Origin: Ricordea florida
Taxonomy: Eukaryota; Cnidaria; Anthozoa; Corallimorpharia; Ricordeidae
Assembly: GCA_949710005.1 (NCBI GenBank)
Contig: OX453275.1
Coordinates: forward strand, 25,418,718-25,482,717
DNA: 64,000 nucleotides
Direction: 5' to 3'
A program made the translations under genes and the position numbers. A model generated the notes under the pieces. The model was not told the origin of the DNA, ran no database searches, and saw only the letters and a program-made list of their open reading frames with translations. Of the stretch, positions 9,301 through 26,516 are shown in pieces (the stretch's first letter is position 1; each line of letters begins with the position of its first letter).

Positions 9301-11028
9301 AAATATCAAAAAATGAAGAAGAAAGGGGAGCCTGACTTATATTGCCCCGGTCAATACTGCGTTCATAGGTGTAATAAAATTTGTAATAAACTGTTTTGTA
9401 AAAAATGCCATAAGATAATGAAAGATTGTACCACATGTGATAAAAACAAGATTTATAAACTATTGAAAACTGGTATGGTTGGAGGTCCTAGTATTGTGTT
9501 CATGCGATATGCAGAGGTGGGTAAAACAAAGATTCGATCCCATAAATATAAATTTCCGAAAAATTGTGTGGTGGTTGTTGGTTATGATGCAAACGGGTTA
9601 TATCTATACTGTGCGGGTCAAGAAATGCCATGTGGTAAAGGGCAATGTATTGAGGTTGAAAATCCAACAGATCCTGAATATATTAAGAAGATTTGTGATG
9701 ATATTCTCAATAACAAACTTTTTGGATTTTGTCAAGTGGATATCAATGTTCCCGAAAATCTCAAAGAAAAATTTGAAGAGTTCTCTCCGCTATTTGTTGT
9801 AGATAGTGTTCCTGAAGATCTAGTACCAGAACATATGAAAGAATATCAAAAAGCTACAGGGAGAAAACCCATAAAAGATAATAAAAAATTGCTTGGGGTT
9901 ACTAAGGCAAAGAAAATATTGTTATATACACCCCTAATTAAATGGTATCTTAATCATGGATTAGAGGTTACAGCTATACATCACATTTTGAAATATGAAT
10001 CGGGAAGACCTTTTAAATGGTTTCCGGAAGAGGTGAGTAACGCACGAAGAGATGGTGATATAGAGGTTATGGTTGAAAAGTTAAATGAGACCCTAAGGGC
10101 CCCGGAGGAAGCTGTTAATAAAAAAGATATAGATGAATCTAAAGATGAAATTGATGTCGACACTATTATGAATGAATTAAAACAATTTCCTGATGTTGTA
10201 CCATTTATTGAAGAGAACAAGGATCTTAATGTGTTGATTGAAAAACTAAAAACAAAGTATAAAGGTTGTAAAGAATTGGGTGATACTTACAAACTAAAAG
10301 GAAATGCATTCTATGGAAAAATGATAGAAGACAAAGAAAAACACAAGAACACAAGCTATACTCAAGATGAGAAGAAGGTTGATAGAGACTTTCGAGATCC
10401 GTTTTTTGATGATCTGACAGAAATAAATGAAACATTTGAAATAGTAAAACGAAAACATAAGATAAACATAGATCGCCCTTATCAATGTGGTATCGCGGTA
10501 TATCAATTAGCTAAACTTCGCATGTTGGAATTTTACTATGATTTTCTTGATAAATATGTAGATAGAAAGGATTTTGAATTAGTCCAAATGGACACTGATA
10601 GTTTTTACTTGGTTTATTCAGATGAAAACTTGGATAATATTCTAAAACCTGAAATGCAAAAAGAATACTTTAATGGCGGAAAAGAAAAATTCCTTTCAAC
10701 CTCGAAATACCACGACAAGACCCCAGGCCTGTTCAAGGTGGAGTTTGAAGGAACAAGAATTATTGCACTTTCATCAAAATGTTATTTCGCCGATGGAAAA
10801 GGGAAAACAAAAGTTAGTTGTAAAGGAAACAACCAAAAACAAAACGATATGACATGGGAACGATTCTATGAAGCTTTGAACGGGGTAATGGATATGGCAC
10901 AAAATACGGGCTTTATGGTTAACAACAATAAAATTGTGACATATAACCAAATTAAAAAAGGATTGAGCGCGTATTATGATAAACGGAGAGTTAAAGAGGA
11001 TAGAATTCGCACAGAACCTTTGTATTAG
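6367..11028 (+). pseudogene. PolB: Element A protein-primed DNA polymerase B, one internal stop
   Basis: A 1553-codon frame is interrupted by a single TAA at 8227-8229; the frame is the same on both sides. The N-terminus has a SAP/LEM-like helix pair and four 16-residue repeats with PPIPAPRKN (about 6530-6735). Then come three KFY-SL-type repeats and an OTU-like segment (DNMCFWRCLA near 7576, GHCFYI near 7885). A C2H2 finger (CGGC then H-x-H region, 7930-7990) follows, and then a Vsr-like nuclease segment with FQFYGC and HGC just after the stop. The polymerase part shows Exo I YDFEA (about 8470), Exo II NSGKYDIN (8775), Exo III YNLNDV (9170), motif A YDANGLY (9585), KLKGNAFYGK (10290) and motif C MDTDSFY (10590). 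It would replicate the linear element genome by protein priming. The stop makes it probably inactive unless read through. It meets the integrase tail to tail. Confidence 0.9.
6530..6735 (+). repeat. 48-bp tandem repeat encoding proline-arginine motifs
   Basis: Four near-identical units inside the polymerase gene each encode a lysine-rich spacer plus PPIPAPRKN or PPTPAPRKN. The PxxxPR core resembles ligands of CIN85/CD2AP-type SH3 domains (established motif; its use here is inference). Element B has an independent array of similar PIPAPRTN units. Confidence 0.75.
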
Positions 11029-11029
11029 C

Positions 11030-12085
11030 TCATTTCAAAACAGAATTAGGCGGCAACTCAGTATCATCTGGTACAACTTGAAGCTCCTCCCTTACAAAAC
11101 CACGTCTTGGACCATCTTTTAAAAAATATAAAACTGGTTGATTAGGAGAAATCGTACTTCCTGAAATATAATAAATCTGAATACTCCAAATAGGATCAGT
11201 AGCTCTCCGCCTTTCACCACCCTCAAGCTCACCAGGAGCAAGTAAGTATCTAACCCTAACCTCAATTGGTAGTCTCACTTCATCAAGTCCAACAACTCGC
11301 TTATACATTTTAGTTTCAATATCAACCTCTTTCAGTTTTATAGCATCATCAGGCTCTTTACCGGTTAATCTTGTTGGTGTATTATTCAAAGTTTTCAAAA
11401 TATCTGGTAATCGCTTCACCCATACTCTAGACCTTTCATCACTAAAACCTAAAGCCCCGGCTACGCCGATCATTTCTTGTGCATATTGATGACTAAATAA
11501 TCGCTCACTTAATGTTCTATTTGCTCTTTCCACAAATGCTTGAGCTCTATGGTTTCCAGCTTCACTTCTTTGAATGTTTACATTATGATATTTCATAAGT
11601 TTTGTCACAGCACCCATAAATTCTCTTCCAGGATCAACAATCAAAGTTTTAGGATATTTTAACTTTCTAGAATATATTTTTCTAAAAGCATTTGAAATTT
11701 CTCGACTTTCTTTTGAGGTTAATGGCTCAGCATCTTTGTATCTCGAGGCAACATCAATCACAACCAATGCATATCGATATGTTTTTCTTCCAACTCTATC
11801 ATGAGGTAAAAATAATAAATCTGCTTGGTGAATCTGATTAGGTTTATCCACAGTCCAGTGAGGTCTAGGAATATATTTTGGAGGTGGTAGATATATTTGC
11901 CACATTGCCTGTTTTTCAAGCCATTGTTTTGCTACATTTTCACTTACTTTTGCTTTTTCAGCTAATTTAGAGATTGCAGAATATCCTTTCCAATATCCAG
12001 CAGTTGAATAATATATCCGCTCTAAAAGCGGGCTCGGCTTCGCAGATATTTTTGAAAACCTTCGGGATATGTTTTCGTTACTCAT
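11030..12085 (-). CDS. INT: Element A retroviral-type integrase
   Basis: An intact 351-residue protein with the start at 12085. Residues about 36-62 form a helix-turn-helix-like stretch. The catalytic core has D89 (HQADLLFLP), D151 (IVDPGREF) and E186 (FVERANR), giving the D,D-35-E spacing of retroviral and Polinton integrases. I do not see the HHCC zinc motif of retroviruses. Its stop lies one base from the polymerase stop, an arrangement kept in element B. It would insert the linear genome and make the 5-bp duplications. Compared with element B it has two extra segments (about residues 6-22 and 207-215) encoded by GC-rich palindromic inserts. Confidence 0.9.
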   Translation of the reverse strand: MSNENISRRFSKISAKPSPLLERIYYSTAGYWKGYSAISKLAEKAKVSENVAKQWLEKQAMWQIYLPPPKYIPRPHWTVDKPNQIHQADLLFLPHDRVGRKTYRYALVVIDVASRYKDAEPLTSKESREISNAFRKIYSRKLKYPKTLIVDPGREFMGAVTKLMKYHNVNIQRSEAGNHRAQAFVERANRTLSERLFSHQYAQEMIGVAGALGFSDERSRVWVKRLPDILKTLNNTPTRLTGKEPDDAIKLKEVDIETKMYKRVVGLDEVRLPIEVRVRYLLAPGELEGGERRRATDPIWSIQIYYISGSTISPNQPVLYFLKDGPRRGFVREELQVVPDDTELPPNSVLK

Positions 12086-12118
12086 TTAAAGATTACTCCA
12101 CCCTTCCTTAAAATAAAT
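12086..12118 (+). promoter_or_regulatory. Divergent integrase-MCP promoter region
   Basis: Only 33 bases separate the two start codons. TTTAAAGATTAC (12086-12097) points toward the capsid gene; the integrase ATG overlaps its edge. One short region probably drives both genes. Confidence 0.5.
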
Positions 12119-13363
12119 ATGACAACCGTATCTGAAAAAATTAATCCAAACAGAATTCCAAGAGAGCCACTCGGTTTGAAAGCGGAATCAATATTGAATA
12201 GAATTACACTAAATCCGTCATCAGCTGATCCTGGAGAAACACTATATATAAATATTCCAAAACTTACCCAGAATTTAGTTCTCATACCTGGAAGTTTATC
12301 TCTACTATTTAATTTGACTGTTGATGGTCATGTCGATAATACCCTCGTGAATAATGTAGGTAGTAACCTTGTATCCAGGCTCAGGGTTCTTTTTGGTGGT
12401 GAAACACTACAGGATACTCAAAGATACGATCTATTTCAAACCTACCATGACTTATTCTTAACAGATGAAGAACGAGAGGATAGATTAAGGCAAGGTATTT
12501 CTTCTGTAAACATGAGGAAACTCAGGACAAATGCAGGTGATAAGGTAGACACAGATGCAAAAGAAGTAGCCCTTGCAGTAGTACATAACACCAAGTACCA
12601 TATCCCACTAAATCATCCTATTCTCAACGATCATGGGGCTTTCTATCCAAAGGCATTAGATCATCAGCTAATATTTGAGATTACACTAGCTCCAGTTAAC
12701 GATATTGTTGTTTATTCTGATACAACCAAGCCACCAACTTATAAAATCACAAACCTTGAGTTGGAATATTCTTGTATATCAAGCGAATACTTAGCTCGTG
12801 AGGCACAGGCAGCTTATCAGGTTGGTAAAGGATTCTTTTACGAGAATGTCACTCTACACAAAACTTTCACCATATCCAGACCTACTGATAGTGTTATAAA
12901 CCAGCATATTAATCTACCTAGAAGGTCAATTACAGGGATATTATGTTTGTTTACATTACCATATGGTGTAGGAGCACGAGATTCTGAGAATTTTTTCAAT
13001 CCAGGTATCACCTCAATCAATATCGATGTTAATGGTGTACCAAACCGTTTCTACTCTAAGGGAATGGTACCTTCAGACCTCTGGGAGTCGGTAAAGAAAC
13101 GTTTTGGACCGACCGAAGGGCGGCAGTCGGTAAAGGAAAAGGATTTTTATAGTAATAAGTTTGCTCTGTGGATAGATTTGAGAACACACCCAGATAATAG
13201 TATTCATGGAGGGGGTCTGGCATTAAACAATGCACAAGATGGTGTAAAAATAGAAATTAAAAGAAAACTTAGTGGATCTGGTATTATGACCTGTTATATG
13301 TTTGTGGTAGCCGATGCGTTGATGGAGATAATGAATTCAGGTTTGCGCTCCATTATGTACTAA
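12119..13363 (+). CDS. MCP: Element A major capsid protein, double jelly-roll type
   Basis: An intact 414-residue protein, rich in beta strands, with segments typical of Polinton/adintovirus hexon-like capsid proteins as I recall them: RLRVLFGGETLQDTQRYDL, then YHDLFL, SVNMRKLR and a conserved end ALMEIMNS. It would form the icosahedral shell. It sits next to the packaging ATPase, as in Polintons. Start 12119 is supported by the element B homologue at 39179-40417, which begins with a similar EINPNRIP stretch. Compared with B it carries a GC-rich extra segment near 13109-13135, in a loop before DFY-NKFALWIDLR. The assignment rests on context and pattern, not a search. Confidence 0.8.
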   Translation: MTTVSEKINPNRIPREPLGLKAESILNRITLNPSSADPGETLYINIPKLTQNLVLIPGSLSLLFNLTVDGHVDNTLVNNVGSNLVSRLRVLFGGETLQDTQRYDLFQTYHDLFLTDEEREDRLRQGISSVNMRKLRTNAGDKVDTDAKEVALAVVHNTKYHIPLNHPILNDHGAFYPKALDHQLIFEITLAPVNDIVVYSDTTKPPTYKITNLELEYSCISSEYLAREAQAAYQVGKGFFYENVTLHKTFTISRPTDSVINQHINLPRRSITGILCLFTLPYGVGARDSENFFNPGITSINIDVNGVPNRFYSKGMVPSDLWESVKKRFGPTEGRQSVKEKDFYSNKFALWIDLRTHPDNSIHGGGLALNNAQDGVKIEIKRKLSGSGIMTCYMFVVADALMEIMNSGLRSIMY

Positions 13364-13448
13364 GTAAAAAGCGCACCCCGAACGAAGTGAGGAAACTTAC
13401 GCTCTATAATGTATTAGTTAAAAGAAAGACCCGAAGGAAAAAAAAAAG
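13364..13448 (+). repeat. GC-rich palindromic insert between MCP and ATPase
   Basis: In element B only a TTAGTTAAAAG linker separates the two genes. Here there are added tracts, including GCGCACCCCGAACGAAGTG and GACCCGAAGG, followed by the same TTAGTTAAAAG and a poly-A run before the ATG. The tracts resemble the in-frame inserts elsewhere in A. Confidence 0.6.
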
Positions 13449-14078
13449 ATGGAAGAATTAAGAGATAAAATTCCTTTTCATTGCATTATAACTGGACCAA
13501 CAAATTGTGGAAAGACAAAGTACATCATTGATCAGCTCCGAGGACCATTTCGAAAAGTTTTTCAATGTATTGTTCTAATATGTCCAACTTATTCTAAAAA
13601 TAAAACCTATCATAATTTTGCTCGAGGAGATAAACATTTCTATGTATTATCACCAGATGCTAGTAACATTGATGAGATTAATGAGTTATTAACTGATTGT
13701 CAAACTTTATTCTCCGGAACAAATACACTAATAATTTTAGACGACTGTGCTGTTTCGAGTGATCTGAAGAAACGATCAAACAAGTTTATAGATTTAGCAT
13801 TTTCTGGAAGACATCATGGTTTATCCGTTTGGGTTCTCACTCAGCAATTAACATCTATAGCAAAACCATTCCGTGAAAATGTGGCTTGTGTGGTCTCATT
13901 CCATAATCCATCACAAAAAGGTATGAAGATGTTTTTCGAAGATTATGGAGGTGATTTAGACTCTGAAACTAGTAAAAAGTTTATACAACTCCTGAAAACT
14001 GAAAACTATTCTAGACTTTGTTTATCTTTACGTCACCCATTTAATTGCTATTTAGAGATTCCTGAAGTTGTAAATTAA
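13449..14078 (+). CDS. ATP: Element A genome-packaging ATPase (FtsK/A32 type)
   Basis: An intact 209-residue P-loop NTPase. Walker A is GPTNCGKT (residues 16-23), Walker B is LIILDD (94-99), and a VLTQQ segment (129-133) fits the sensor position of the HerA/FtsK/A32 class. It would pump genome DNA into preformed capsids. It follows the MCP directly, the standard Polinton pairing. The homologue in B (38545-39171) has 208 residues and no indel of note; relic C carries a frameshifted copy. Short length is normal for this class. Confidence 0.88.
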   Translation: MEELRDKIPFHCIITGPTNCGKTKYIIDQLRGPFRKVFQCIVLICPTYSKNKTYHNFARGDKHFYVLSPDASNIDEINELLTDCQTLFSGTNTLIILDDCAVSSDLKKRSNKFIDLAFSGRHHGLSVWVLTQQLTSIAKPFRENVACVVSFHNPSQKGMKMFFEDYGGDLDSETSKKFIQLLKTENYSRLCLSLRHPFNCYLEIPEVVN

Positions 14079-14081
14079 AAT

Positions 14082-14240
14082 ATGAAAGAATTTGAAGATG
14101 ATGATGATTATAATTATGAGACGTGCCAAGATGAGTTGGAAAAGTTGATTGATCGAGAACTTATAAAATTTGTAGGTTTATTAGGGCTGGTTGGATTCCA
14201 GAGCTATCTTTTAATACTATATTATCATCTCATTCAGTGA
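14082..14240 (+). CDS. Small membrane ORF, possible partial duplicate
   Basis: A 52-codon frame with an acidic N-terminus (EFEDDDDY) and a hydrophobic C-terminus (VGLLGLVGFQSYLLILYY). The DNA around TTCCAGAGCTATCTTTTA also occurs in the membrane segment of the gene at 14903-15424, so this may be a decayed partial duplicate. Element B has nothing here. I do not know that it is expressed. Confidence 0.35.
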   Translation: MKEFEDDDDYNYETCQDELEKLIDRELIKFVGLLGLVGFQSYLLILYYHLIQ

Positions 14241-14327
14241 TTTCAGCGTAGCTGTTCGGCAAAGCCGTTTTAAAAGAATCTATGTTTTATTACAAGTCTA
14301 AAGACCAGCTGTGATGAAAATTAAAAG
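14241..14327 (+). promoter_or_regulatory. Leader with palindromic tract and TTTTAAAAGAATCTATG box
   Basis: It contains ATTTCAGCGTAGCTG, repeated almost exactly near 26484, and GGCAAAGCC. A box TTTTAAAAGAATCTATG then precedes the next gene. B has the corresponding TTTAAAAGAATCTAT without the GC-rich part. Confidence 0.45.
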
Positions 14328-14867
14328 ATGGCAGAAGTTGAAGATTATATTGAAGAAACAAAAGATGAGGTAAAACATAATGATTATGATAATGAAGTTG
14401 AAATAAAACAAGAATCACTAGCCATTCTCGCATCTCTTGGAACCACAAAGGAATATTTAGGTGTTGATATGAGTCTAGGTGATATAAAAAAATTATCGGT
14501 AAAAGACATTGAAAAATATTATAATCGATATCAGGCAGTATTAGGTAAGAAAATTAGTGGCGGATTAGTAGATTCATCTCTCCAATTAGTTTCACAAGTC
14601 ATTTCTTACTTAGTTCCAGTAGATGATATAGAAGCACTTTGTGTGGATTTGAAGAATGATGATTTGGTTAATCGCGAACTGACAAACATTGTAGGTCTCT
14701 TAGCATTGAAAGCAGGAAGGTTGGCAGCACTTGCTAGCGGACTATTCCAGGTTGCTAAACATGTTAAATTCAACAAAGACCCGAAGGGCCCCGAAGGAAT
14801 ACAAGAAGTTTCAAAGACAATTACAGATAATGCTAACAAAACTGAGCATATAACTGAGCACAACTGA
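14328..14867 (+). CDS. Conserved element protein, 179 residues, function unknown
   Basis: Homologous to 38037-38513 (158 residues) in B and to fragments at 55200-55651 in C. The N-terminus is acidic. The core has SLAILASLG, TKEYLGV and KYYNRYQAVLG, then two hydrophobic helices, the second around LLALKAGRLAALASGLFQ. Near the end a GC-rich insert adds the segment DPKGPEGI, absent in B. I do not recognise the family. Position after the ATPase suggests a virion or assembly protein. Confidence 0.75.
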   Translation: MAEVEDYIEETKDEVKHNDYDNEVEIKQESLAILASLGTTKEYLGVDMSLGDIKKLSVKDIEKYYNRYQAVLGKKISGGLVDSSLQLVSQVISYLVPVDDIEALCVDLKNDDLVNRELTNIVGLLALKAGRLAALASGLFQVAKHVKFNKDPKGPEGIQEVSKTITDNANKTEHITEHN

Positions 14868-14902
14868 TTTAAAGATTCTTTACTTTGAGAAATAAAATAA
14901 TA

Positions 14903-15424
14903 ATGTCAGAAGCTGTTGAACAAATTACAGCCCCGAAGGGCCCCGGAGGAATTGATCCCAAGCCTGAAAATAAAGATTCAAAAAAGAAAGAGAAAGAAAC
15001 CGGCGGAGCCGGAGCCGCCCTACGGGCGAAAGATCCTAAAAAGGTTGCGGCTGGTAAGAAACTAGCTGAATATAACAAAAAAGCAAAAGAAGCACTAGCT
15101 AGAGAGACCCTACGGGCCGCGGAGCAAATGAAACGTGAAGAAAAAATGAAACAGGAAGAAGAAACTAAAAATGAAGAAAATTATAATGAAGATGGTGATT
15201 ATAAGGCTTGGCTTCCAGAGCTATCTTTTACTACTGTATTATCTATTGTTGGAATAGGTTTCACCGCATTTGATATGTTTATGAGATACCGACAAAGTCC
15301 AAAGGAGGATAATAAAAATAGGATACCAGATTTATCTCAAGTTCCAACTAAAGTTCCACCTACAAATATCCCCATCCAACCCTCACAACCAGCATCACAA
15401 CCTCTTAAAATGGGAATGTTATGA
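14903..15424 (+). CDS. Conserved single-pass membrane protein
   Basis: The start is set at ATG 14903 because B (37585-37995) begins at the equivalent MSDE; an upstream TTG at 14885 is not conserved. Residues 1-95 are lysine-, glutamate- and alanine-rich and probably helical (DPKKVAAGKKLAEYNKKAKE conserved in both copies). A single hydrophobic segment, LSFTTVLSIVGIGFTAFDMF, and a proline-rich tail follow. Three GC-rich inserts (about 14930, 15003 and 15106) add segments such as TLRAAEQ that B lacks. TTTAAAGATTCTTTAC lies just upstream. It is probably a virion membrane or scaffold protein (inference). Confidence 0.75.
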   Translation: MSEAVEQITAPKGPGGIDPKPENKDSKKKEKETGGAGAALRAKDPKKVAAGKKLAEYNKKAKEALARETLRAAEQMKREEKMKQEEETKNEENYNEDGDYKAWLPELSFTTVLSIVGIGFTAFDMFMRYRQSPKEDNKNRIPDLSQVPTKVPPTNIPIQPSQPASQPLKMGML

Positions 15425-15429
15425 TGTGA

Positions 15430-15450
15430 TTTAAAGATTTCTTATTGATA
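15430..15450 (+). promoter_or_regulatory. TTTAAAGATTTCTTATTGAT box
   Basis: This extended box lies about 13-30 bases before ATG 15463. Nearly the same 20 bases precede 16206 and 17478. Confidence 0.6.
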
Positions 15451-15462
15451 CAGTAAAAAATT

Positions 15463-15681: not shown

Positions 15682-15733
15682 AGGGGAGGAACCTCAAATT
15701 AAGGATTTATAGACCTGAGCGAAGCGAAGAAAC

Positions 15734-16153
15734 ATGGCAGCAATAGCAATGATGGTTGGAGGAGCTATTTTGAACGCTACAGCTTTTGTTGGTGGTTCAT
15801 ATCTTGCAAAATCTCTATCTGGTGATAAAACAGATACAGAACGAATACGACATGATAAGGCATTAGAAAAATATCAAAAAGATTATGCAGAATATCAGGA
15901 AAATAGACAGAAAATAATTTATTGGAAAGAACAACAAAAGGATGCAAAATATCAGGCATCAAAAAATATTTCTAATACCGATGAAGCTTTGAAATTGTAT
16001 AGTCAGACACATAAACCAAAATTCTCTGAAACTCTGAAAGAGCCCCGCTTTGCGGATTATTATAGACCTAGTGACAATCAAAAGATGGGTGAAATGGCAT
16101 ATGTAGGTGGTGGTATGTTAGCTTTAGGTTATATGGTAAGTAAATTCTTTTAG
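15734..16153 (+). CDS. Conserved 139-residue protein with N- and C-terminal hydrophobic segments
   Basis: The N-terminal segment AIAMMVGGAILNATAFVGGS is followed by a charged helix (RHDKALEKYQKDYAEYQE), then a QKMGEMAYVGGGMLALGY hydrophobic end. Homologues are 36909-37301 in B and 56363-56758 in C. A GC-rich insert (about 16039-16055) adds EPRFA-type residues relative to B. A GAGCGAAGCGAAG tract also interrupts the leader just before the ATG. Function unknown. Confidence 0.75.
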   Translation: MAAIAMMVGGAILNATAFVGGSYLAKSLSGDKTDTERIRHDKALEKYQKDYAEYQENRQKIIYWKEQQKDAKYQASKNISNTDEALKLYSQTHKPKFSETLKEPRFADYYRPSDNQKMGEMAYVGGGMLALGYMVSKFF

Positions 16154-16173
16154 AGATAATTGTATGTGATTAG

Positions 16174-16205: not shown

Positions 16206-17402
16206 ATGGCAGAAGGAGGAGAATTACCAGATTTTGATCCAACCGATCTAGGTGGTGATATTGATAGAGAAAATATGGAAATGGGTACAATATCATCCAC
16301 CACTGGTCTAATTAACCTTGATGATGATGAAGAAACCTCATTTGGTGGTAGGGAATATGAAAAGGATGGTGCTATACCTAAATCACCAAAAACTATTTTT
16401 AGTGAACTTGAAAAAAATCAAGATGAATCTGAAGATGAGATTAAATCATTATTTCCTAATGCAGATACTTCTAATTTTATACATTGGTATGATGAATATG
16501 GACAATTAAAAGTAAAATTGAATAGGAAAGGAGCAAAACCTTACTCATTATTCAAAGGAGGCAAATTGAATGATGAAATTCCTGATACAATCAGAAAAGC
16601 TCTAGGTGTTGATTATGAAACCATGCTTATACAAAATAATAATCTTTTATCACAATTGAATGAAGCTAATGAACAAAATAGGGATTTACTTAATGTGTTA
16701 CAAGGATTGGAAGCAACCACAAAAGTATATCCTATGGAGATTAGTCGATATGAGGAAAAAGAAAAAGAAATCCGTCAATTCGCTGAGAAACAACAAGTGG
16801 AAAAAACGGAAATAAAAAGTCTTTTTGATGCAACTGTTAAACAGAATATAGAATTAAAAATAAGGGTTGATAACCTTTTGAATGAAACAAAACTATACAA
16901 AGATGAAATAGATAAGTATAAGAAGGGACAATCTAATTTAACAAAGTTAGAACAAAGTAATGAACGTTACAAAAATGAGTTAGATAAATTGAGAGAAGTG
17001 TTGAGAAAACAAATAATTTCCAATCAAGAAAAAATTGGTGAAATAGATAAACGAAATGATGAAATACTTAAAAATCTACCATTAAGAGAACGGGTAAAGG
17101 CTATCTTCAAAAAATATGGTTTTACAGTCTTTGCTGTTGTGAGTGCTGTAGGTGTGGTTATTGGTGTAATAATTTCTAATCTTTCTAAAGGTCTAGCCAA
17201 ATTGGGTAAAGGTGTTGGTAATGGGTTGAAAACTATTGGTAAGAAACTAGGTGAAATATTACCTGGAATGGTTGGAGCCATCGTGAGCTTTCTTTTCAAA
17301 ACAGCGGGTGAGGTTATTGGATTTTTAGGTAAGAACGCTTGGTTGTTGATAATGGCTGTGGTTCTATATTTTGTGGAAAGGGTAAAGACCGCGAAGCGAT
17401 AA
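16206..17402 (+). CDS. Long coiled-coil protein with membrane-active C-terminus
   Basis: 398 residues. The N-terminus is acidic. Residues about 140-290 form a long charged coiled coil. The last 105 residues are a conserved hydrophobic domain starting RVKAIFKKYGFTVFAVVSAV, with glycine-rich amphipathic repeats (LAKLGKGVGNGLKTIGKKLG), two further membrane segments and a basic tail. Homologues are 35625-36860 in B and 56784-58127 (broken) in C. I recall the same C-terminal domain in many uncharacterised cnidarian proteins. The layout would suit a tape-like or membrane-remodelling virion protein, but that is a guess. Confidence 0.7.
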   Translation: MAEGGELPDFDPTDLGGDIDRENMEMGTISSTTGLINLDDDEETSFGGREYEKDGAIPKSPKTIFSELEKNQDESEDEIKSLFPNADTSNFIHWYDEYGQLKVKLNRKGAKPYSLFKGGKLNDEIPDTIRKALGVDYETMLIQNNNLLSQLNEANEQNRDLLNVLQGLEATTKVYPMEISRYEEKEKEIRQFAEKQQVEKTEIKSLFDATVKQNIELKIRVDNLLNETKLYKDEIDKYKKGQSNLTKLEQSNERYKNELDKLREVLRKQIISNQEKIGEIDKRNDEILKNLPLRERVKAIFKKYGFTVFAVVSAVGVVIGVIISNLSKGLAKLGKGVGNGLKTIGKKLGEILPGMVGAIVSFLFKTAGEVIGFLGKNAWLLIMAVVLYFVERVKTAKR

Positions 17403-17477: not shown

Positions 17478-18125
17478 ATGGAAGACTATAATAAAATTTA
17501 CGGCGTGGCCGGTCCCGAGCAAAGCTCGATTTATCCTCAATTACCAATGAATGGCGATCCACTTAATTTCAGATTACAAAAGTCATGCGAAGTACTACAA
17601 AATCTTGAGAGGGAAATTAAACATTATGAGGATGTTAGGAAAAAATACAATAGAGCAAGAGGTATATTTACAAAAATAAGTGTTAGTAGTGGGGTGTTTT
17701 CAGTTATTCTATCTGCAAGTGGACTTGGAACCTCCCTTACTGGTTTTGGTGCTGTTGTTGGTATCCCATTAGGAGCGGTTGGCGGTATTTGTGGGGGAAT
17801 ATCAGTTGGATTCGGTGCGGCTTCTAAACGACTTTCCCATAAAGTTAGTAAACATGAACAGACAGTTTCTCTAGCAAAAGCAAAAGTAAATACCATTCAC
17901 GACTTGGTTTCAAAGGCACTAAAAGATAACTCTATCTCTGACCAAGAATTTTCTCTAATTTTATCAGAAGTAGAAAAATTTGAAAAACTAAAACTCGAAA
18001 TCCGCCAAAAAACTCATAAAGATACAGAAAAAAACTTAAATATGAATCAGATAAGAACAGAGGTTCGAGCGGAAATATTAAAGGACCTGACCGAAGGGAG
18101 GGGAAGAACAGCTCCCGTACGTTGA
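17478..18125 (+). CDS. Conserved glycine-rich membrane protein with helical tail
   Basis: 215 residues. Two hydrophobic glycine-rich segments (VFSVILSASGLGTSLTGFG and GIPLGAVGGICGGISVGFGA) are followed by a charged helical half (SKRLSHKVSKHEQTVSLAKA). Homologues are 34621-35217 in B and 58172-58609 in C. Residues 9-19 (a GVAGPE segment) come from a GC-rich insert at 17499-17532 that B lacks, and the C-terminus is changed by a CCGAAGG tract. It is probably a membrane or capsid-lining protein; no family is recognised. Confidence 0.7.
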   Translation: MEDYNKIYGVAGPEQSSIYPQLPMNGDPLNFRLQKSCEVLQNLEREIKHYEDVRKKYNRARGIFTKISVSSGVFSVILSASGLGTSLTGFGAVVGIPLGAVGGICGGISVGFGAASKRLSHKVSKHEQTVSLAKAKVNTIHDLVSKALKDNSISDQEFSLILSEVEKFEKLKLEIRQKTHKDTEKNLNMNQIRTEVRAEILKDLTEGRGRTAPVR

Positions 18126-18250
18126 AAATGACATTTGAGAGAACTCCTGTAGGATGTAATTGTTTTGCTGGTATTAGAAAAGAATGGTATTAGAAGAAAC
18201 CGGAGGTGATTTCCTTCGGACCGGCAAGGCTGATTTAAAAACATCATGTT
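18126..18250 (+). promoter_or_regulatory. Leader with GC-rich tract
   Basis: It contains ACCGGAGGTGATTTCCTTCG followed by GACCGGC, an inverted GC-rich tract, and then GATTTAAAAACATC, conserved before the B homologue. Confidence 0.4.
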
Positions 18251-19083
18251 ATGAACAAAAAAGTGGTATTATTTAATGATTTCAGAAACATGTATCCAAG
18301 GGCTGATATAAGCCATTTCACATTTGTGCCTGATTCGTATGGCGGATATATTAAATGGCAGGTTGATGGTACAACAATAATGTCAAATGATGATCCTACT
18401 GGAAAAACATGGATTGATGATCTGTCACCCCGTTTGAAAAGAATTTTATGGAAAGATTTAGGGTTGAGCGAAGCGAAGAACTTGGATGATCCTTCGGGGT
18501 TTACCTCTGATGAAGTGAGTTCATTTCCAAATAGTTTAACATTGACTAATCGATCTTATCCAATACCAGCTGTTAATTTTGATGACTTTTCAACTGACAT
18601 AACAAAAATGCTAACCTCGCTGGATATATACGTTTCAAATACCAAGAAATTCACAGCAAAGATGAGAAACATATTTACATCACAAGTTGTTACTTTCAAA
18701 TTTGGTAAACAGAGTAGAAAATGGTTGAATGCACCTGATATGAATTATTGGCCTCAACAACTTAACTTTGCAGTTTGGTGTGCAACATCTGGTTGTGGTA
18801 TAAGTCCTTTTGAAAGTCTAAATTACCCCAAAGTAGTGAATAGCTTCATTAAATTTCATGTGTATTTCACAATAAGGCGGATATTATATGAATTAAGTCT
18901 TCCCTTACCTGATGAGCAACCTTTTGTAATAAATAATAATCCCTATAGTAAAGTAGCATATCAACGTTTGTGTGCAGAATTTAGCATATCAAAAAACTCA
19001 GACTTTAGATGGAAAGGTGGTAGAAACGACGGATTGGGAGATATATTCCTTGATTATGGTGCAGGATATCATGGAAAAGGAGG
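18251..19083 (+). pseudogene. 511-residue-type structural gene, 5' part, cut by Gypsy
   Basis: The first 277 codons of a gene whose intact homologue is 32984-34519 in B (511 residues). It contains FNDFRNMYPRAD, YGGYIKW, a DDPTGKTWIDDLSPRLK stretch and WLNAPDMNYWPQQLNFAVW. The Gypsy LTR begins at 19084 and the frame runs into it until 19111. The remainder resumes after the second GGAGG at 24899. A GC-rich insert at about 18468-18510 (GAGCGAAGCGAAG and CCTTCGGGG) adds about 14 residues absent from B. I do not recognise the family; size and position suggest a minor capsid or vertex protein. Confidence 0.8.
19079..19083. repeat. Gypsy target-site duplication (GGAGG), left
   Basis: GGAGG at 19079-19083 is repeated at 24899-24903, just outside the two LTRs. 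A 5-bp duplication is usual for Metaviridae. Confidence 0.9.
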
Positions 19084-19236
19084 TGTGGTGTTTCGGGCCC
19101 AAGTAGAATAAAAGATTCCGGCACTTAAACAACGATAACAATTTTTATTTCTCTGTCTCCGAGCACATGCTCCCGTTCTGCATCCCATAATGCACTAGGG
19201 ATCATGTGACTCACATGTCACAATAGAAACACTACA
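19084..19236 (-). repeat. Gypsy 3' LTR (153 bp)
   Basis: Matches 24746-24898 base for base as far as I can see. AATAAA occurs at 19109-19114 on the plus strand; I see no clear minus-strand signal. Confidence 0.93.
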
Positions 19237-19246
19237 TCTCCCCCTA
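19237..19246 (-). other. Gypsy polypurine tract
   Basis: On the minus strand TAGGGGGAGA directly precedes the 3' LTR, the expected place for plus-strand priming. Confidence 0.75.
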
Positions 19247-19362
19247 AGTTATTACAAATGTTAGTACTAGAGAAAAACTAAATGAAAGGTATTACGAACC
19301 TAATTGAAGTCTTTAAAACAAACATACAGTCTCTCTCTTAATGTCTCTTGCACAATCTAAAA

Positions 19363-22300
19363 CTAAGTGCATACGTAGTCTTTCAAATAGGCGGGTGGTT
19401 GTCTAGAACGCGCAGGTCGCAAAACAACTGAATCGCCTGGCAAAGGGTTGGGTGGAGTCTCTTGCACCTCTGCTGCTGGCTGGCTTGCGACTGTCATTGG
19501 ATGCGCTTGTTTCACCTGGTCTGGTTCTTGGGGTTGTTGTGTTGGCTGTACTTGGTCTTCCCTTTCAGTGGTTTCAGGTGCAACAAATTTCTTCATGTGG
19601 GCTATGTTTCGCATTTTATTGTTTCCATTTGTATCTTCAAGTATGACAGCATTTCCATCCTTGTGAATAACTTTGTATGGCTCAGGTTCATAATTGGGTG
19701 AAAGTTTGTTCTCTCGAGCCTGTTTCAGTAGGACTTGATCACCCTCTTCAATGTCGCTGAATTTGGCAGCGCGTGTTCTGTCTGCATACTCCTTCTGTCT
19801 AAGTTTAGCACGAGCATCCCTGTCTTTTAAGAGCAGTTGCCATTGTGCTTCAGTGGCTCGATCCTTGGGGATTTGAACTTTTGGAAGTTTGTCACGCAGC
19901 TTCCTCCCCATCAGTAGTTCTGCAGGTGATATCCCGGTAACAGTGTGAGGGGTAACTCTGTACTGGAAGAGAAAGTCTGCAAGTGCTTTTCGCCAATCTT
20001 TACCCTCTAGACGTGCGATTCTCACAATTTTCAGTAAGGTCTCATTGCAACGCTCTACTTCGCCATTGCTTTGGGGCCAAAAGGGCACGCCCTTTTTGTG
20101 CTCGATTGCTAGATATTCTAGGAATCCCTCAAATTCCTTGGATGCAAATGGAGGTCCGTTGTCACTACGGACAGTCTCTGGTAGACCATGTGTTCTAAAA
20201 ATAGCCTCCATGGGCTTGATTACATGTTTTGCATCTGTTGTCTTGAGAAGGACAGCTTCGATCCAGCGAGAATAGTAGTCTACAACTACCAGGAGGTGAT
20301 CTCCACCTGTAATCTCTAGAAGATCAACCGAGATTTCTTGCCATGGGGAGTCTGGTAGTCTGGTTGATCTCACTGGCTCTGGTTTGGATCGGGGTCCGAC
20401 AAGCTGGCAGGGGTGACATGTTCGTACTACTTGCTCTACTTGCTTGTCCATTCGCGGCCACCATACTTTTTCTCGTAACCTGGCTTTAGTTCGGACCATA
20501 CCTTGGTGTCCTTCGTGAGCCAGCATTATGGTGCGCTTTTGAAGGTTCTGTGGGATGATGATGCGGCTTCCTCTCATCACCACCTGCCCTATCACCCACA
20601 GTTCATCTTTAACTGCTTTGTAAATTGTGCCTTGTAACTGGCTCCAATCATCTGTCATTACAGCCTGACGTAGCTTCTTTAGTGTTGGGTCTTTTTCAGA
20701 AGCGATTTCAACTTCCTTTGGTACCAACGCAGCTGGTACAGCCTCACTTACTACGCTGTACGCAAACTCTTCTGTAGCTTGAGTTTCGTGATCATGGGTA
20801 GAACCAACCGGTAGGCGGCTGAGGACATCTGCAGCATTGTCCTTGCCCCGGATATGTGTCAGCTTGTATTGGAACTGCTGTAAATAGAGAAGCCATCTTT
20901 CTATTCTTGCAGATGGGGGCTTTGACTTTGCTCCGAGTACGATGAGAAGAGGCTTGTGATCAGTGCAGATTTCAAAGCTAATGCCATAGAGGTACAAGTA
21001 GAATTTTTCACAAGCCCACCTTACAGCCAGGGCTTCTCTTTCAAATTGGGAGTACCTCATTTCAACCTTACTCAGCTTCCTGCTGGCATAATATATTGGC
21101 CTGTAGCTTCCATCTTCTTGCTCCTGTTCCAGAATCGCCCCAACTCCCACGGGTGAAGCGTCAGTTGTCAGACGAGTTTCTGCGCCCTGTCTGAAATATG
21201 CCATCACTGGTGCATGAGTCAACCGGTCTTTTATCTCTTGGACTGACTTTGCTTCCTTTACTCCCCACTTCCACTTTCCATGTTTCGTAGTGAGGTCCCA
21301 CAATGGACTCGATATTGTTGCGAAGTTAGGAATGAACTTTGAACAGAACTGCACGGAGCCAAGAAAACTTCTTACTTCTGATGGGTTTTGGGGTGCTGGT
21401 GCCTCAACAATAGCTTTCACACGTTCACTAGACACTTTCAGCCCTTCCCCAGAGAGCACATCACCCATGTAGATCATGCTGCTGACACCAATTTCACATT
21501 TTTCATAGTTAAGTGTAAGCCCACTTTCGTTAAGCTTGCGCATGACCCTCTGTAAGTTTTTATCATGCTCTTCATCATTTGTGCCAACAACTCGCAGGTC
21601 ATCATGGAGGTTGTATGCCCCTGGGCAGTCTTGGATGATCTGCCACACAATTTGCTGGAATTTTTCCGTGGCCATGTTTACACCGAAAAGCAGGCGCTTG
21701 TATCTGTAAAGGCCATTAGGGGCAGCAAAGGTTGTAATGTCCCTTGAGTCTGGGTGTAACTCAATTTGATGGAAAGCCATATTTAAATCTAATTTAGAGA
21801 AAACTTTGGCATTTGAGACTTCTTGGAGTGTTTCTTCTACGGTGGGGACTGGGTGTTTCTCCCGCACAATGGCCTGGTTCGCTTGTCTCATATCCAGACA
21901 GATTCTAATGTCCCCGTTAGGTTTCTCGACCACTACCAAGGGGTTGACCCAGCTGGTAGGTCCCTCTACTTTCTCAATAACATCAAGCTTCAGTAACTCC
22001 TCCAATTTCTCTGTGACTTTCTTTCGTCTACTAAAAGGAATTCTGCGTGGGGGTTGAGCAACTGGCTGCACCTTTTCGTCAATGTGTAACTTGAGTTGGT
22101 ATCCTTTGAGCTTCCCCAGGCCTTGGAAGACTTTGGGAAACTTTGCCCTTAGGGAGGCCTTTCTATCTGCTTGTTTTGGATTGTTACTAGCACCATCAGA
22201 TTCAACATCACAGCTGTTAACAGGGATACCAACCCTTAAAACACCAAGCAATTCAGATGCATCGCGGCCTAATAGCGTGGCAGCTTTACTATGCGTAACA

Positions 22301-23186
22301 TAAAACTCAACGCTCAGGGACTTTTGGGTTTGCGGTACACGTACATCAAGATTACATTTTCCTTTGATTTGGAGTGGCTCTTCAGATGCATAAGCAAAAA
22401 CTCTTTTGTTGCACTCCAACAATTTAACATTACCCCCCGTTATAAGGTTAAATACTTCCTCGGACATCAAATTACAACTAGCACCAGAGTCTATAATGAC
22501 ATTAATAGTCTTATCTGCAATCTCCAGCTTTAGAGTGTTCCTGTCATCTGTCTCCCCAGTGTAAAACACGTAGAAATCATCCTTTCTTGCAGAGTTCCCA
22601 GCAGTCTCGTCCTCAGTTACTTGGCGTACATCACGTTGGCACTGTGAACTTCCTCCACGACTTTGTTTTCTGCCAGAGTTTCCACGACCGCGACTCGAAC
22701 TCCGACTAGAATCTCGCCCTTTACTCTGTTTGGAGAGACAGCACACTTCGAAATGACCCACGTTGCCACATTTCCCGCATTTGTGGTCACGTGAACGAAA
22801 GCATTCCCTCGCGAAGTGTCCCGCTTTATCGCACCGCCAACATTTTCCCCCTTTTTTGACGCTTGGAGATATGTTATTTACTTGGCCATTACGGTTAAGA
22901 ACGAGTGCTTCTTTGTCATGGTATTGGCTAACGATTTCCATTAGTTTGCTCAATGTTAATGTTTCTTCGCGATACAACTTGGCCTTGAGGTTTTTGTCTT
23001 GAATGAAAGAAATCGCACGATCTCTCACCTGGTTATCCCTTTCACCTTCGTATTCACAATGTTCGGCTAATTTCTGCAAGCGTGTGATGAAATTGTTAAT
23101 GGTTTCTCCAGCGGTTGGTTGAGCTGCGAGAAACGCCTGTCTTGCCATCGGCGCGTTTTTTCTCGGTTTGAAATGTTCGGATAGGC
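19363..23186 (-). CDS. gag-pol: Gypsy gag C-terminus and pol polyprotein
   Basis: An open frame of about 1280 codons that has lost its first part to the insertion at 23187. Order: gag capsid end; two zinc knuckles (CWRCDKAGHFAREC and CGKCGNVGHFEVCC); aspartic protease with IIDSGASCN; reverse transcriptase with FSKLDLNMAFHQIEL and LLFGVN and the catalytic pair in NLHDDLRVVG (so LHDD instead of the usual YxDD, both aspartates kept); RNase H with TTDASPVGVGAIL; integrase with the HHCC finger (HEGHQG, then CHPCQ), D in ISVDLLEI, D in VRSDNGPPF and E in NGEVERCNE; then a basic C-terminal extension. No stop lies within it. The domain order is that of Ty3/Gypsy. Confidence 0.95.
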
Positions 23187-24414
23187 CATGGCGAAGAATT
23201 CGAGACATAAGTGGGCGGTCCTATTTTCAAGGGTTCATAATCCGTCAATCAATGGTTTTCCAGCTTTGACTTCCCATTGGCTCACCGTTGCCTTGGAAGG
23301 ATGAAATTTTTATTATCGTTGGTCATTAATGGCTGCTGCGGCGAGTGGAAGGTTCAGGCACTCACACAGCAAGAACTTTTACAGAGATCTCGACAATTTT
23401 TCAACGGCTGCCGTACATAAAACAAGAATTAGAAGAAAAAATCTGTTTAGTCGTGCTTATTTTGACGTCGAAAGACTAATTTCAACAAGGAAATCGGAGG
23501 ACGAAGTAAGTTACATTGATGCGGGATTCACTTGCCTAACATGTGTCGAGGTTACCTTCTAACGAACCGATTATCCCGTGATCTTGAAAGGAACTGGAAT
23601 ATTTGGTGCATTGGCGTGGATTCTCTCCTTACGAATCTTCTTGGGAACCACAGAGGAATATAACAAAGGAATGCATTAAGTGAGTGCATCAAAGTATTCA
23701 CATCGGTGTAGTAGTGTTGCAGTTATTTTAACAAGCCCCAACCAAGAGATGCGACTATTTTAAATGAAGTTTCCCGACTAAGAGTTAATGTCGAAAGTTA
23801 CTTAAAGAATAAACAGCGTGGTGCAGTAACAATAGACTTTAGAAAAAGGGGAGGCTACTTAGCCTGCTTGAGCAAGATGGCGTCAAGGAAAACACAAACA
23901 AACGAGGAACGTTCTTTTCATGGTTCGCCGTTATTACCTGTTTATTCCTCTTACAAAGAAAGCAAAAAAATGGTAAATTTTCCTTGTGAAAACCGCAGTG
24001 GATACCAATCGCCATAATTTGGAGGCATTTCCACCGTAAAGTACGCGAATTTAAGTTATCGAAAAGGATGGAAACTCCAGTCTACGGTAAACTCTGTGGC
24101 GAGGAGTACCGATTCACGGGGACAACATATGGCCTTCTTGGCAAGACCGCCATACTAGATTCTTGTGTGAATATATGCTCGCCGTTTACTCGAAAACCGC
24201 AGCGGAAACAACTTCCAAGGTAGGCATTGTACGGAATTTATTTGAAGCAACATCAGTACTAATCGAGTGAGTTGGAAACCAAGGCACCCAGACAGTTTCA
24301 TCCGAGATATTTCGATTTTTCTTCTTATTCTCACTTAAACTCTCTTACAGAAAATACGCCGAAATTTTCTAATCGCTCGTCAATGCGCATGCCTGTCTCG
24401 AATTCTTCGCCATG
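23187..24414. mobile_element. 1.2-kb TIR element nested in Gypsy gag
   Basis: CATGGCGAAGAATTCGAGAC A (21 bp, 23187-23207) is repeated as its perfect reverse complement at 24394-24414. The gag frame stops being gag-like exactly at both borders and would continue after removal with a 2-3 bp duplication (GC-like). The interior has no transposase; the only open frame on the plus strand (23329-23562, 77 codons) has no motif I know. It is therefore a non-autonomous DNA transposon of unassigned superfamily. Confidence 0.75.
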
Positions 24415-24671
24415 CTGTCCATAGCTTTCTTGTAATCCTTCGCTTCGCCTCGTTTGTCGGCAGGAATTGAGTTATTAAAAACGTCTCTGACTTGGGGCCC
24501 GGCGAGGTGAAGTAGAAGCGCCCTCTTCTGTGTTGGGTCGCTGATTCCCGAGGCAGTCACGTACAATTCGAATTCGTCTTTCCAAGTTAACCATCGTTGT
24601 GCGAGTGTAGCTGGCTCGCCCACAGCGTCGAACGCTTGTAAACCTGGCAGTCCGCTCAAGGATACGGCCAT
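24415..24671 (-). pseudogene. gag: Gypsy gag N-terminal part
   Basis: Starts at 24671 with a gag-like stretch (GLPGLQAFDAVGEP, RWLTWKDEFELY, QKRALLLHLAGPQVRD) and runs to the nested TIR element at 24414. Downstream gag resumes at 23186. Confidence 0.8.
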
Positions 24672-24724
24672 CTGTGCGAGTTTTCCACCGTTTAAACTCG
24701 TTAACCACTTTTTATCCGCTTTTC

Positions 24725-24745
24725 GTCTTTATCCTCGTCGCCAAA
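24725..24745 (-). other. Gypsy primer-binding-site candidate
   Basis: Immediately after the 5' LTR the minus strand reads TTTGGCGACGAGGATAAAG, the usual position and style of a tRNA primer site in Metaviridae. I cannot name the tRNA. Confidence 0.5.
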
Positions 24746-24898
24746 TGTGGTGTTTCGGGCCCAAGTAGAATAAAAGATTCCGGCACTTAAACAACGATAA
24801 CAATTTTTATTTCTCTGTCTCCGAGCACATGCTCCCGTTCTGCATCCCATAATGCACTAGGGATCATGTGACTCACATGTCACAATAGAAACACTACA
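24746..24898 (-). repeat. Gypsy 5' LTR (153 bp)
   Basis: Identical by eye to 19084-19236 and bounded outside by GGAGG (24899-24903). Confidence 0.93.
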
Positions 24899-25750
24899 GG
24901 AGGGGAATATCAAAATGTACATATTATAAGGAATTATGATCATGAAGCAGATCAATGGGCTGGTGAAGGTGGTAAATTTACTGATGACGGTGGTAAGAAA
25001 GAAAAAGGTGACCTAATCTCATTCATTCGTAATGATGACTTTGCTGATTTCAAATATGGTTGGTTTATCCCAACAAGTGGACATGGACTCACTAAAGCTG
25101 GACTTGGTAGATTGAATCGATCTGCTGAAGCTTTTGTTTACTGTATATTGGGAGCACAAGTCAATACTAGAAACTCAATTTATGGTAATGGTGGTGGAGC
25201 TGTAGAGACTCAACAAGAATTCTTGGCTTTATTTGAAAGTAGTGTTATTGAGAATGATATTTCTAGTTCTATCCAAAGATATCAATTAGCTGTACAGGAA
25301 GCGAAATTACGGCTTGATTTAGCTATTGCTCCTGGTGTATGGTTAATGCCGAGTAATATGATAATCAACACTGAAAGCGTGACAGGTTTTAATAACAAAC
25401 TTATGAAAGCGAGTAATGATATGAATTTTGGAGTGAATAATTCACTAAACACTGAAGCAAAACAGGTTGGAATAAGTCATAACATGGGATCTTCAAAGGT
25501 AAAGTTACCTCATATTCGCCTGGAAGGGGAGGCCAGCTTCGCTGATAGAACTAAAACGAAGAAAAACCCTAAGGAATCAAAACCCTCAACGAAAACAGAC
25601 TCAATGAAACAGGAAATCCGCAGGACCCGCTCCGCTGAAAATAATATTGACTCAACGCAACATGAAGATAATGCGCGAAGCGAGCACGAAGTGCGTATAT
25701 TAGCATTTATAGTTGTCGCTGGTGGATTAGCGTGGTATCTATTTCGGTAG
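24899..25750 (+). pseudogene. 511-residue-type structural gene, 3' part after Gypsy
   Basis: The frame resumes at the second GGAGG with YQNVHII-type residues and includes the open frame 25112-25750. It matches the C-terminal half of 32984-34519 in B: SAEAFVYCILGAQVNTRNSI, YGNGGGAVETQQEFLALFE, then IAPGVWLMPSNMI. A C-terminal membrane anchor ILAFIVVAGGLAWYLFR closes it. Three GC-rich inserts (about 25526-25556, 25618-25640 and 25671-25697; the last contains GCGCGAAGCGAGC and CACGAAGTGCG) enlarge the linker before the anchor relative to B. Confidence 0.8.
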
Positions 25751-25846
25751 ATGACTGTTTTTTCAGCTTACGCGTAAGTCGTTTTTTTATCACAGGCGGT
25801 TATTATAGAAAATTTAAAAAGATGAATATGGTTTAATCAAAACAAA

Positions 25847-26482
25847 ATGTTGAGTATTACCATGTATGAGTCTGAAACAAGGATTTATTTAGATCCTCCA
25901 TTGAAAAATCTTAGGGAGATACAACTCCTGGATTGTAATATAAAAACCAAAAGATTGATTAATTTCAAGTATCAAGAGATGTTATTCAATGAAAAGAATC
26001 AAGCCGTCATAATAATACAACCCGGTACATATTCGTTGCGTGATATTCAATCGATCTTTCTTAATGATACTGATAGGGAAAAGATAACAATAATTGAGAC
26101 TGATACTGTTGACTATCTATATTCCAATAAGAACTTAATCATTAAACTTACGAGAGGGTTACAAGTTGGTTTAGGTTTGCCTGAAATTACAAAACCTGGT
26201 AAATTATACCCCATAAATATACAGATTAAGGAACCGCTGAGACTTATGTGTAGTATAGTTGATAATAAGTTGTCATATATGAATAACACCAAATATGGAG
26301 AACTTGTGAAACTCTCACCATCAAACCTACTTGCAAACATACCCTCAAAGGATTATCCAACAATTCCAGTTCGAAAATATGAGACCCTAATAAATCACTT
26401 TGATTTAAGCATCTTAGACAATGAATGGAAAAAACTTGATCTGAAGGGTTCTCCAATAACTTTTAGTTTAAGATTCAGATAA
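25847..26482 (+). CDS. Predicted beta-rich minor capsid-like protein, 211 residues
   Basis: An intact frame with ETRIYLDPPLKNLREIQLL near the start and a beta-rich end HFDLSILDNEWKKLDLKGSP. B has a shorter relative (35228-35614, 128 residues) that keeps the start and end but lacks about 80 middle residues and lies at another place in the gene order. I recall similar ends in cnidarian Polinton proteins thought to be penton-like, but cannot confirm. An AATTTAAAAAGATG box lies upstream. The stop is followed by TTTCAGCGTAGCTG and then a hairpin. Confidence 0.6.
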   Translation: MLSITMYESETRIYLDPPLKNLREIQLLDCNIKTKRLINFKYQEMLFNEKNQAVIIIQPGTYSLRDIQSIFLNDTDREKITIIETDTVDYLYSNKNLIIKLTRGLQVGLGLPEITKPGKLYPINIQIKEPLRLMCSIVDNKLSYMNNTKYGELVKLSPSNLLANIPSKDYPTIPVRKYETLINHFDLSILDNEWKKLDLKGSPITFSLRFR

Positions 26483-26516
26483 ATTTCAGCGTAGCTGGCC
26501 CTTCAGGTCTTTTGTT

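Follow-up and report, generated by a model that had tools for sequence, protein, structure and literature searches.

The stretch analysed here, referred to as the window, comprises 64,000 nucleotides of the corallimorpharian Ricordea florida (GenBank assembly GCA_949710005.1, contig OX453275.1, positions 25,418,718 to 25,482,717 of the forward strand), taken from a genome of 48 contigs and 537.8 Mb. It contains a Polinton, element A, whose homologue, element B, lies in reverse orientation. Element A carries about two dozen short inserts of ~18-36 nt that are lacking in B, and these inserts very probably represent a mobile insert family. An earlier note on this sequence had described them as short GC-rich palindromic inserts that pepper the genes of A but not those of B.

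The features expected of a Polinton, i.e. PolB, integrase, packaging ATPase and capsid genes plus terminal inverted repeats, were all found in A. Pfam searches with the A proteins returned rve and Pox_A32 above the cut-off and Capsid_N below it, and gave no polymerase match; the gene that we take to be PolB was named from the earlier note and general knowledge. The major capsid protein (MCP) of A has 571 relatives. The integration of A appears to be young because its 161-bp terminal repeats are identical and a 5-bp duplication is present. Nevertheless, its PolB frame is split into two open reading frames (ORFs; 6367-8229 and 8323-11028), and PolB of B is split likewise. A Gypsy-like element, judged from its sequence a young insertion, interrupts A inside the penton-like gene.

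Filled and empty sites among Polinton copies

The A/B codon alignments showed in-frame, A-only inserts in PolB (10084), the integrase gene (11467 and 12070, minus strand), g14885 (14930, 14999 and 15107), g15734 (16028), g17478 (17496) and the penton-like gene (18464, 18491, 25514, 25613 and 25673), no more than a few bases from the places given in the earlier note. Extra segments specific to B in the same alignments were fewer and were not palindromic words.

Further copies were obtained by searching a PolB piece of A against its own genome, which yielded at least 42 matches besides that of A itself. Pieces of ~9 kb from 20 of the 42, picked mostly by match rank and mostly ~80-95% alike, were compared, and 19 further places were left out. 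The contrast between A and B was confirmed when GC-rich triloop hairpins (loop of 3 nt, at least three G-C pairs) were counted, with 13 in the left part of A and 1 in B, but the family is not peculiar to A. It is common to many copies, with counts per ~9 kb of 24 hairpins in L018, 18 in L016, 14 in L013, 13 each in A and L030 and 11 each in L015 and L022; L024, L027 and L029 have none. The copies differ insert by insert, so that filled sites stand beside clean empty ones, and at each compared site the majority of the other copies are empty. With the insert-poor copy L027 as reference, 162 flank-supported insertions of 9-80 nt were detected in the 19 other sequences, 77 of them with a GC content of at least 0.55, whereas the 15 insertions of L027 against these sequences included none that was GC-rich. 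With L029, L024 and B as references, 68, 84 and 57 GC-rich insertions were found, against a single one in the reverse direction each time. Site occupancy was taken from site alignments and not from a word table unanchored to sites, which marks L014 at the PolB site where the alignment shows it empty.

As the earlier note had stated for several shorter words, modules spanning 21-32 nt are found again at sites that have nothing to do with each other, and the inserts thus share more than their GC content. The modules also occur in both orientations. Variants of a 21-nt module occur in A at 10087, 14777, 14929 and 15105, and the penton-like genes of L032 and L034 contain one as well. A 28-nt module of g17478 reappears in L046 and L047, where it lies in the interval from the penton gene to g25847, and an identical 32-nt module is shared by the L016 integrase gene and L018 g14328, in which it resides on opposite DNA strands. 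Since module lengths shared between sites are double-counted, each strand being tallied and some sites entering twice through different references, we rely on the sequences themselves. In the whole genome, CCCKAMGGGCCSCGRAG occurs in 232 copies (reversed control 0) and CRGCGNAGCYGGTC in 704 (reversed control 54); the sampled hits, the first listed, lay among Polinton genes in 8 of 8 and 20 of 20 cases. In IMG/VR, no relative of the MCP was found, one word search gave 2 hits on GC-rich contigs, and a second gave 5 hits without Polinton genes, approximately the number that we estimate for chance.

Two further properties point to insertion into working genes. For the analysis of flanking repeats, gaps of up to 80 nt were collected and inserts of 12-45 nt were considered, after removal of the 135 of 273 insertion events backed by a single reference. 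Among the remaining 81 distinct GC-rich inserts, a direct repeat of at least 3 nt flanks 18, at 12 sites (null 5.3%), and one of at least 4 nt flanks 11 (null 1.5%). Many filled sites show doubled target sequence that empty copies hold once. The repeats are most evident at double hairpins, which are often flanked by 3-8 nt of AT-rich target, whereas modules of 18-21 nt have 0-2 nt. These 3-8 nt repeats indicate insertion in A and not loss from B. The second property is the reading frame, which the earlier note had described as kept. In genes, 54 of 62 distinct GC-rich inserts and all 10 AT-rich ones have lengths divisible by three, compared with 7 of 16 and 5 of 19 between genes, three inserts of mixed class having been left out. 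Three of the exceptions in genes are variants of a single site where the ATPase gene ends. Comparison of A with nine other sequences gave dN/dS ratios of 0.08-0.24 for MCP and integrase. Together with the frame preference, this shows that the inserts passed selection on working genes.

Fold and anatomy of the inserts

The short GC-rich palindromic words of the earlier note were recovered, but as parts of larger modules that often consist of two adjacent hairpins. In the best-preserved class, of 24-29 nt in total, a linker such as GGTCC or GGGCC joins two short hairpins that are GC-rich and mostly have loops of 3 nt. Examples are ATTTA-CGGCGTAGCCG-GTCC-CGAGCAAAGCTCG-ATTTA in g17478, AATT-CCGGCTCAGCCGG-GCC-CGCTCTTCGAGCG-AATT in g14885 and ATAT-CCGCCTGGAAGGCGG-GCC-CGGCTCCGCCG-ATAT in g14328. 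Other modules measure 18-21 nt, e.g. AGACCCNAMGGGCCSCGGAGG. One of 18 nt resembling GGTTCCTCCTTTCAGTCGG (L011, L013, L018 and others) recurs in the integrase, MCP and g17478 genes and, as its reverse complement, between genes. Not every repeated insert is GC-rich. An AT-rich module of 18 nt resembling GAATCTAAAGATGAAATT occurs at four unrelated sites (in L011, L012, L014, L021, L022 and A); it has no GC-rich hairpin and needs a separate explanation.

A structural scan detected 52 double hairpins in 280 kb of Polinton pieces (0.6 after shuffling); the pieces partly overlap, and 45 are distinct with their flanks. None was found in 63 kb of insert-poor copies or in B. A direct repeat of 3-6 nt accompanies 20 of the 45, while re-paired flanks gave a mean of 0.10 and a maximum of 0.22. 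In the left part of A, the 13 triloop hairpins compare with a mean of 6.1 in 100 shuffles, and with at least four G-C pairs the count is 7 versus 0.43. The right part of A has 4 (shuffles 0.81) and B has 1 (shuffles 8.0).

The loops are biased as well. When the loop of CRGCGNAGCYGGTC was opened to any three bases, the genome hits rose to 1394 (control 111), of which the GNA form makes up about half, compared with the 1 in 16 that random loops would give. A GNA or TNC loop is present in 24 of the 58 distinct GC-rich triloop hairpins of the 20 copies and A, versus 10% in shuffles. The variable stem pair of CRGCGNAGCYGGTC is complementary in 96 of 100 listed hits, copies that share descent and are not independent, and one of the other four is a G-T wobble. 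DNA mini-hairpins with GNA or GNNA loops on at least two G-C pairs are described in the cited section as very heat-stable and strongly nuclease-resistant (PMC4686876).

The individual features of A are listed in Table 1. The 24-nt integrase insert closely matches a module in g15734 of L018, and a variant of the 14777 module lies 4 nt from that site in L011, L012 and L014. At 13109, where the earlier note had claimed an insert in the MCP, the CCGACCGAAGGG-like word is present; the loop is of variable length and other copies carry other residues there. Of 120 MCP relatives listed, 4 have the tripeptide TEG at this loop, and the insert peptide of g17478 appears, in varied form, in 5 of 120 listed g17478 relatives (P0121, P0122, P0123, P0131 and P0143). 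A relative of g17478 also exists in Nematostella vectensis (P0196, 60%). Tandem 48-bp units that code for KNIKNKTQKPPIPAPR lie in the N-terminal part of the PolB gene of A (6556-6718); B has a similar PIPAPR repeat.

Table 1 Element A, the Gypsy-like element and the inserts of A (window positions; rows are the aligned sequences at a site; LTR, long terminal repeat)
Feature	Position	Strand	Occurrence and remarks
Polinton element A, insert carrier	6133-27771	+	identical 161-bp terminal inverted repeats; 5-bp target duplication GCTCT; rve, Pox_A32, sub-threshold Capsid_N
Gypsy-like LTR element in A	19084-24898		1281-aa ORF on minus strand; identical 153-bp LTRs; target duplication GGAGG
21-nt module, PolB gene	10087-10107	+	filled in 4 of 19 rows: A, L011, L012, L030
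24-nt insert, integrase gene	11445-11468	-	1 of 22 rows (A); different 12-nt insert there in L019
29-nt double-hairpin-like insert, integrase 5' part	12017-12045	-	ATAT flanks; A alone among 19 rows
Second-module remnant	12060-12070	-	module whole in L016, L018, L019 (alignment)
CCGACCGAAGGG-like word, variable MCP loop	13109-13123	+	6 of 22 rows
Intergenic GC-rich tract	13372-13392	+	inside 54-nt excess over L027
28-nt insertion with 24-nt double hairpin, ATPase/g14328 junction	14241-14268	+	TTT flanks; also L013, L016, L018, L030; empty in L028, L029
23-nt intergenic module AAGTCTAAAGACCAGCTG...	14294-14316	+	also L014, L030; elsewhere in L022 (MCP/ATPase junction)
21-nt module near g14328 3' end	14777-14797	+	4 of 22 rows: A, L020, L022, L030
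21-nt module, g14885	14929-14949	+	2 of 22 rows: A, L014
Double hairpin, g14885	14999-15028	+	2 of 22 rows: A, L018, differing by a compensatory stem pair
21-nt module, g14885	15105-15125	+	7 of 22 rows: A, L013, L014, L015, L016, L018, L020
21-nt insert, g14885	15288-15308	+	15 nt in L013, L018, L020
Intergenic GACCTGAGCGAAGCGAAG	15712-15729	+	in L015, part of a 28-nt insertion
27-nt double hairpin, g15734	16028-16054	+	A, L015, L016
21-nt insert, g16206 3' end	17378-17398	+	identical insert in L013
28-nt double hairpin with ATTTA target repeat, g17478	17496-17528	+	A, L013, L016, L018, L030; folds as two triloop hairpins
18-nt insert, g17478 3' end	18089-18106	+	A, L018; variants in L012, L013, L020, L022
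40-nt intergenic excess with GC-rich words	18189-18228	+	shuffled-fold p 0.13
GCGAAGCG insert, penton-like gene	18464-18478	+	A vs B
CCTTCGGGG insert, penton-like gene	18491-18507	+	A vs B; identical in L012, variant in L021
Insert, penton-like gene 3' part	25517-25544	+	A vs B only
24-nt insert, penton-like gene	25614-25637	+	22 of 24 letters match g14885 of L012, L015
Two hairpins CGCGAAGCG, GCACGAAGTGC	25673-25695	+	hairpin scan, A vs B
Intergenic CAGCGTAGCTG word	26484-26507	+	hairpin scan; no empty site compared

Possible origin of the inserts

On balance, we slightly favour the view that the inserts are non-autonomous mobile mini-elements, a family resident in Polintons with lengths of ~18-36 nt, and that they spread by the capture of DNA fragments. 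The earlier comparison with a mobile mini-palindrome in the style of Rickettsia palindromic or organelle hairpin elements is supported, mobility resting on the distribution among copies. Movement probably takes place in extrachromosomal Polinton DNA, given that the sampled host-genome hits lie in Polintons and that the in-frame lengths reveal selection on working genes. Polintons have protein-primed replication with displaced single strands. The modules would move during this extrachromosomal, replicating phase, when displaced strands may be degraded while mini-hairpins with GNA loops withstand nucleases and persist as short fragments. Surviving fragments might then be captured at staggered breaks of other Polinton molecules, where fill-in of the overhangs would create the direct repeat, and later recombination from copy to copy would shuffle filled and empty sites. 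Such capture of nuclease-resistant fragments, which we put forward tentatively as it has somewhat less than an even chance, would explain why the fold is conserved over the sequence, why both orientations occur, why the target repeats vary and why the modules appear confined to Polintons. A stricter version seems rather unlikely to us. The modules of 24-29 nt would be selfish DNA without a gene or transposase, whose sole replicative trait is their fold; the two nuclease-resistant mini-hairpins would outlast the destruction of single-stranded viral DNA and be recaptured at staggered breaks, and selection would act on hairpin stability, through GNA loops and compensatory stem changes, and not on the sequence.

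Enzyme-driven transposition, in which an enzyme, either the integrase of the Polinton or a transposase of the host, recognises the hairpin ends, pastes the module and duplicates the target, is an unlikely alternative, although A itself has a 5-bp target duplication and repeats of 4-6 nt accompany the best double hairpins. The repeat length is not fixed (0-8 nt), the module ends (C...G hairpin bases) are by eye unlike the Polinton end AGTAGTAT, Pfam recognised no other enzyme gene and no mobilising enzyme among the A proteins scanned, and the sampled hits were in Polintons only. An RNA route or template switching during replication, in which the hairpin of an RNA or of nascent DNA serves as template for a copy at a new place and no free DNA fragment arises, would suit the 18-21 nt modules with almost no target repeat, and an RNA route is proposed for the Allomyces and yeast elements in the passages cited (PMC2800124, PMC4478555). 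Yet the 3-8 nt target repeats at 12 sites and the occurrence of both orientations are at odds with it, and no reverse transcriptase was seen in A outside the Gypsy-like insert, so that we consider this route still somewhat less probable than transposition.

Explanations without mobility fare worse. Slippage or the correction of quasi-palindromes might create hairpins in place, which copies would then share through descent and recombination. Single imperfect hairpins are indeed common, template switching generates inverted repeats according to the section cited (PMC6649704), and the presence of inserts departs from the flanking trees. Nevertheless, in-place origin is improbable in view of the 21-nt module, variants of which are scattered over several unrelated sites, the identical 32-nt module in two genes and genome-wide word counts far above the reversed controls. 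That the hairpins are working signals that terminate or process transcripts, as in giant viruses, is suggested by intergenic inserts and by the mRNAs of Marseilleviridae, reported in the passage cited to end in hairpins (PMC5413956). This is very improbable since most distinct inserts lie in genes (72 coding vs 35 intergenic) and some related copies are entirely without inserts. The earlier note had also raised the loss from B of ancestral residues. Absence from B and from insert-poor copies cannot by itself polarise gain versus loss, but most other copies are empty too, filled sites often have direct target repeats, some inserts occur in A alone among 19-22 rows, and modules recur at unrelated sites. 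We regard such a loss as barely credible.

Several results weigh against capture of mobile hairpins as a full account. Among the 81 GC-rich inserts, the repeat length varies from 0 to 8 nt, with 0 nt in 21 and 1 nt in 34. A repeat of at least 3 nt also flanks 5 of 29 AT-rich inserts (the null was run for GC-rich inserts only) and is hence not peculiar to hairpins. Variants of one site were counted separately, and the tests are therefore not independent. The fold energy beats mononucleotide shuffles at p 0.05 in just 17 of the 81 GC-rich inserts, the corresponding figures being 1 of 29 for AT-rich inserts and 8 of 200 for random segments, and 34 of the 58 distinct hairpins have loops other than GNA or TNC. 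Hairpins exist outside Polintons, too. Host and Gypsy DNA has 2 double hairpins in 34 kb (shuffled 0.4), and the host stretch 46500-64000 contains 6 hairpins with at least four G-C pairs (0.92 shuffled), although of other sequences. The 28 sampled genome hits all come from contig C1 and reduce to about 20 places once hits at most 10 kb apart are joined. Plotted on flanking trees, insert presence requires 4 changes at the PolB site, where clustering was no better than with shuffled labels (L019 and L028, both outside the site alignment, scored empty from the indel comparison), 3 at the g17478 site (27 of 500 shuffles equally low) and 3 at the integrase 5' site. This conflict fits recombination between copies; repeated insertion or precise excision also fits. 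Capture alone leaves the 18-21 nt low-repeat modules and the AT-rich 18-nt module unexplained, and this sequence analysis revealed neither an enzyme nor a free fragment nor an extrachromosomal event.

Two side observations belong here. Perfect hairpins outside Polintons lie at 51868-51896 and 63818-63836, the latter with a CCCGAAGGG core. Among the 20 copies, trees built from the flanks in PolB, integrase and g17478 disagree, and the Polinton copies are thus mosaics.

Relation to known hairpin elements

Unlike miniature inverted-repeat transposable elements, the Polinton inserts have no target duplication of one fixed length (0-8 nt). The translational bypassing elements of yeast mitochondria are short hairpin inserts in coding sequence that are skipped in translation, and their frame need not be kept. 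The in-gene inserts of Polintons are mostly multiples of three (54 of 62, vs 7 of 16 between genes), as would be expected if they are translated, and this speaks against such skipping.

By analogy, the Polinton inserts are closest to the double-hairpin elements of fungal mitochondria and the GC clusters of yeast. The cited passages describe these likewise as short GC-rich palindromic modules, sporadic among relatives, that merge and shuffle (PMC4478555, PMC2800124). A GC-rich fold of one or two hairpins and filled and empty sites among close relatives were both found here. The Polinton inserts differ in being nuclear, mostly in genes and in frame, and in having variable target repeats of up to 8 nt. 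According to the same passages, flanking duplications are said to be absent from the Allomyces elements, and yeast GC clusters have short flanking repeats (PMC4478555, PMC2800124). We do not class the Polinton inserts as mitochondrial double-hairpin elements because their home, judged from the sample, is not an organelle (28 of 28 sampled hits in Polintons).

The repetitive hairpin-forming elements of sponge mitochondrial DNA are hairpin inserts as well, a few of them in protein genes without frameshift. They differ in being organellar and mostly intergenic, and by the cited account no transposition mechanism could be inferred for them (PMC2800124). Rickettsia palindromic elements are also palindromic and keep the frame in unrelated genes, a trait shared by most coding inserts here, but they are bacterial and measure ~150 bp in the part cited (PMC10969869) compared with ~18-36 nt. 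The coding palindromes of Nematomorpha mitochondria are inverted repeats in protein genes, too, but are described in the cited section as perfect inverted repeats of up to 284 bp and not as short inserted words (PMC6649704). The earlier note knew of no such inserts in Polintons, and no prior report for Polintons or adintoviruses was found among the titles seen in a search of open-access literature.

Short mobile hairpins have been debated for decades in organelles without a known mechanism. With hundreds of module copies in the nuclear Polintons of one genome, their gain, loss, target choice, repeat length and structure become directly measurable. If the strict version of fragment capture were true, the modules would rank with the smallest mobile DNAs that duplicate their target, and nothing like them would have been known in eukaryotic DNA viruses and Polintons. 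Confinement to Polintons, if true beyond the sample, would link their movement to viral replication, and the in-frame inserts provide a route for viral proteins to gain short segments.

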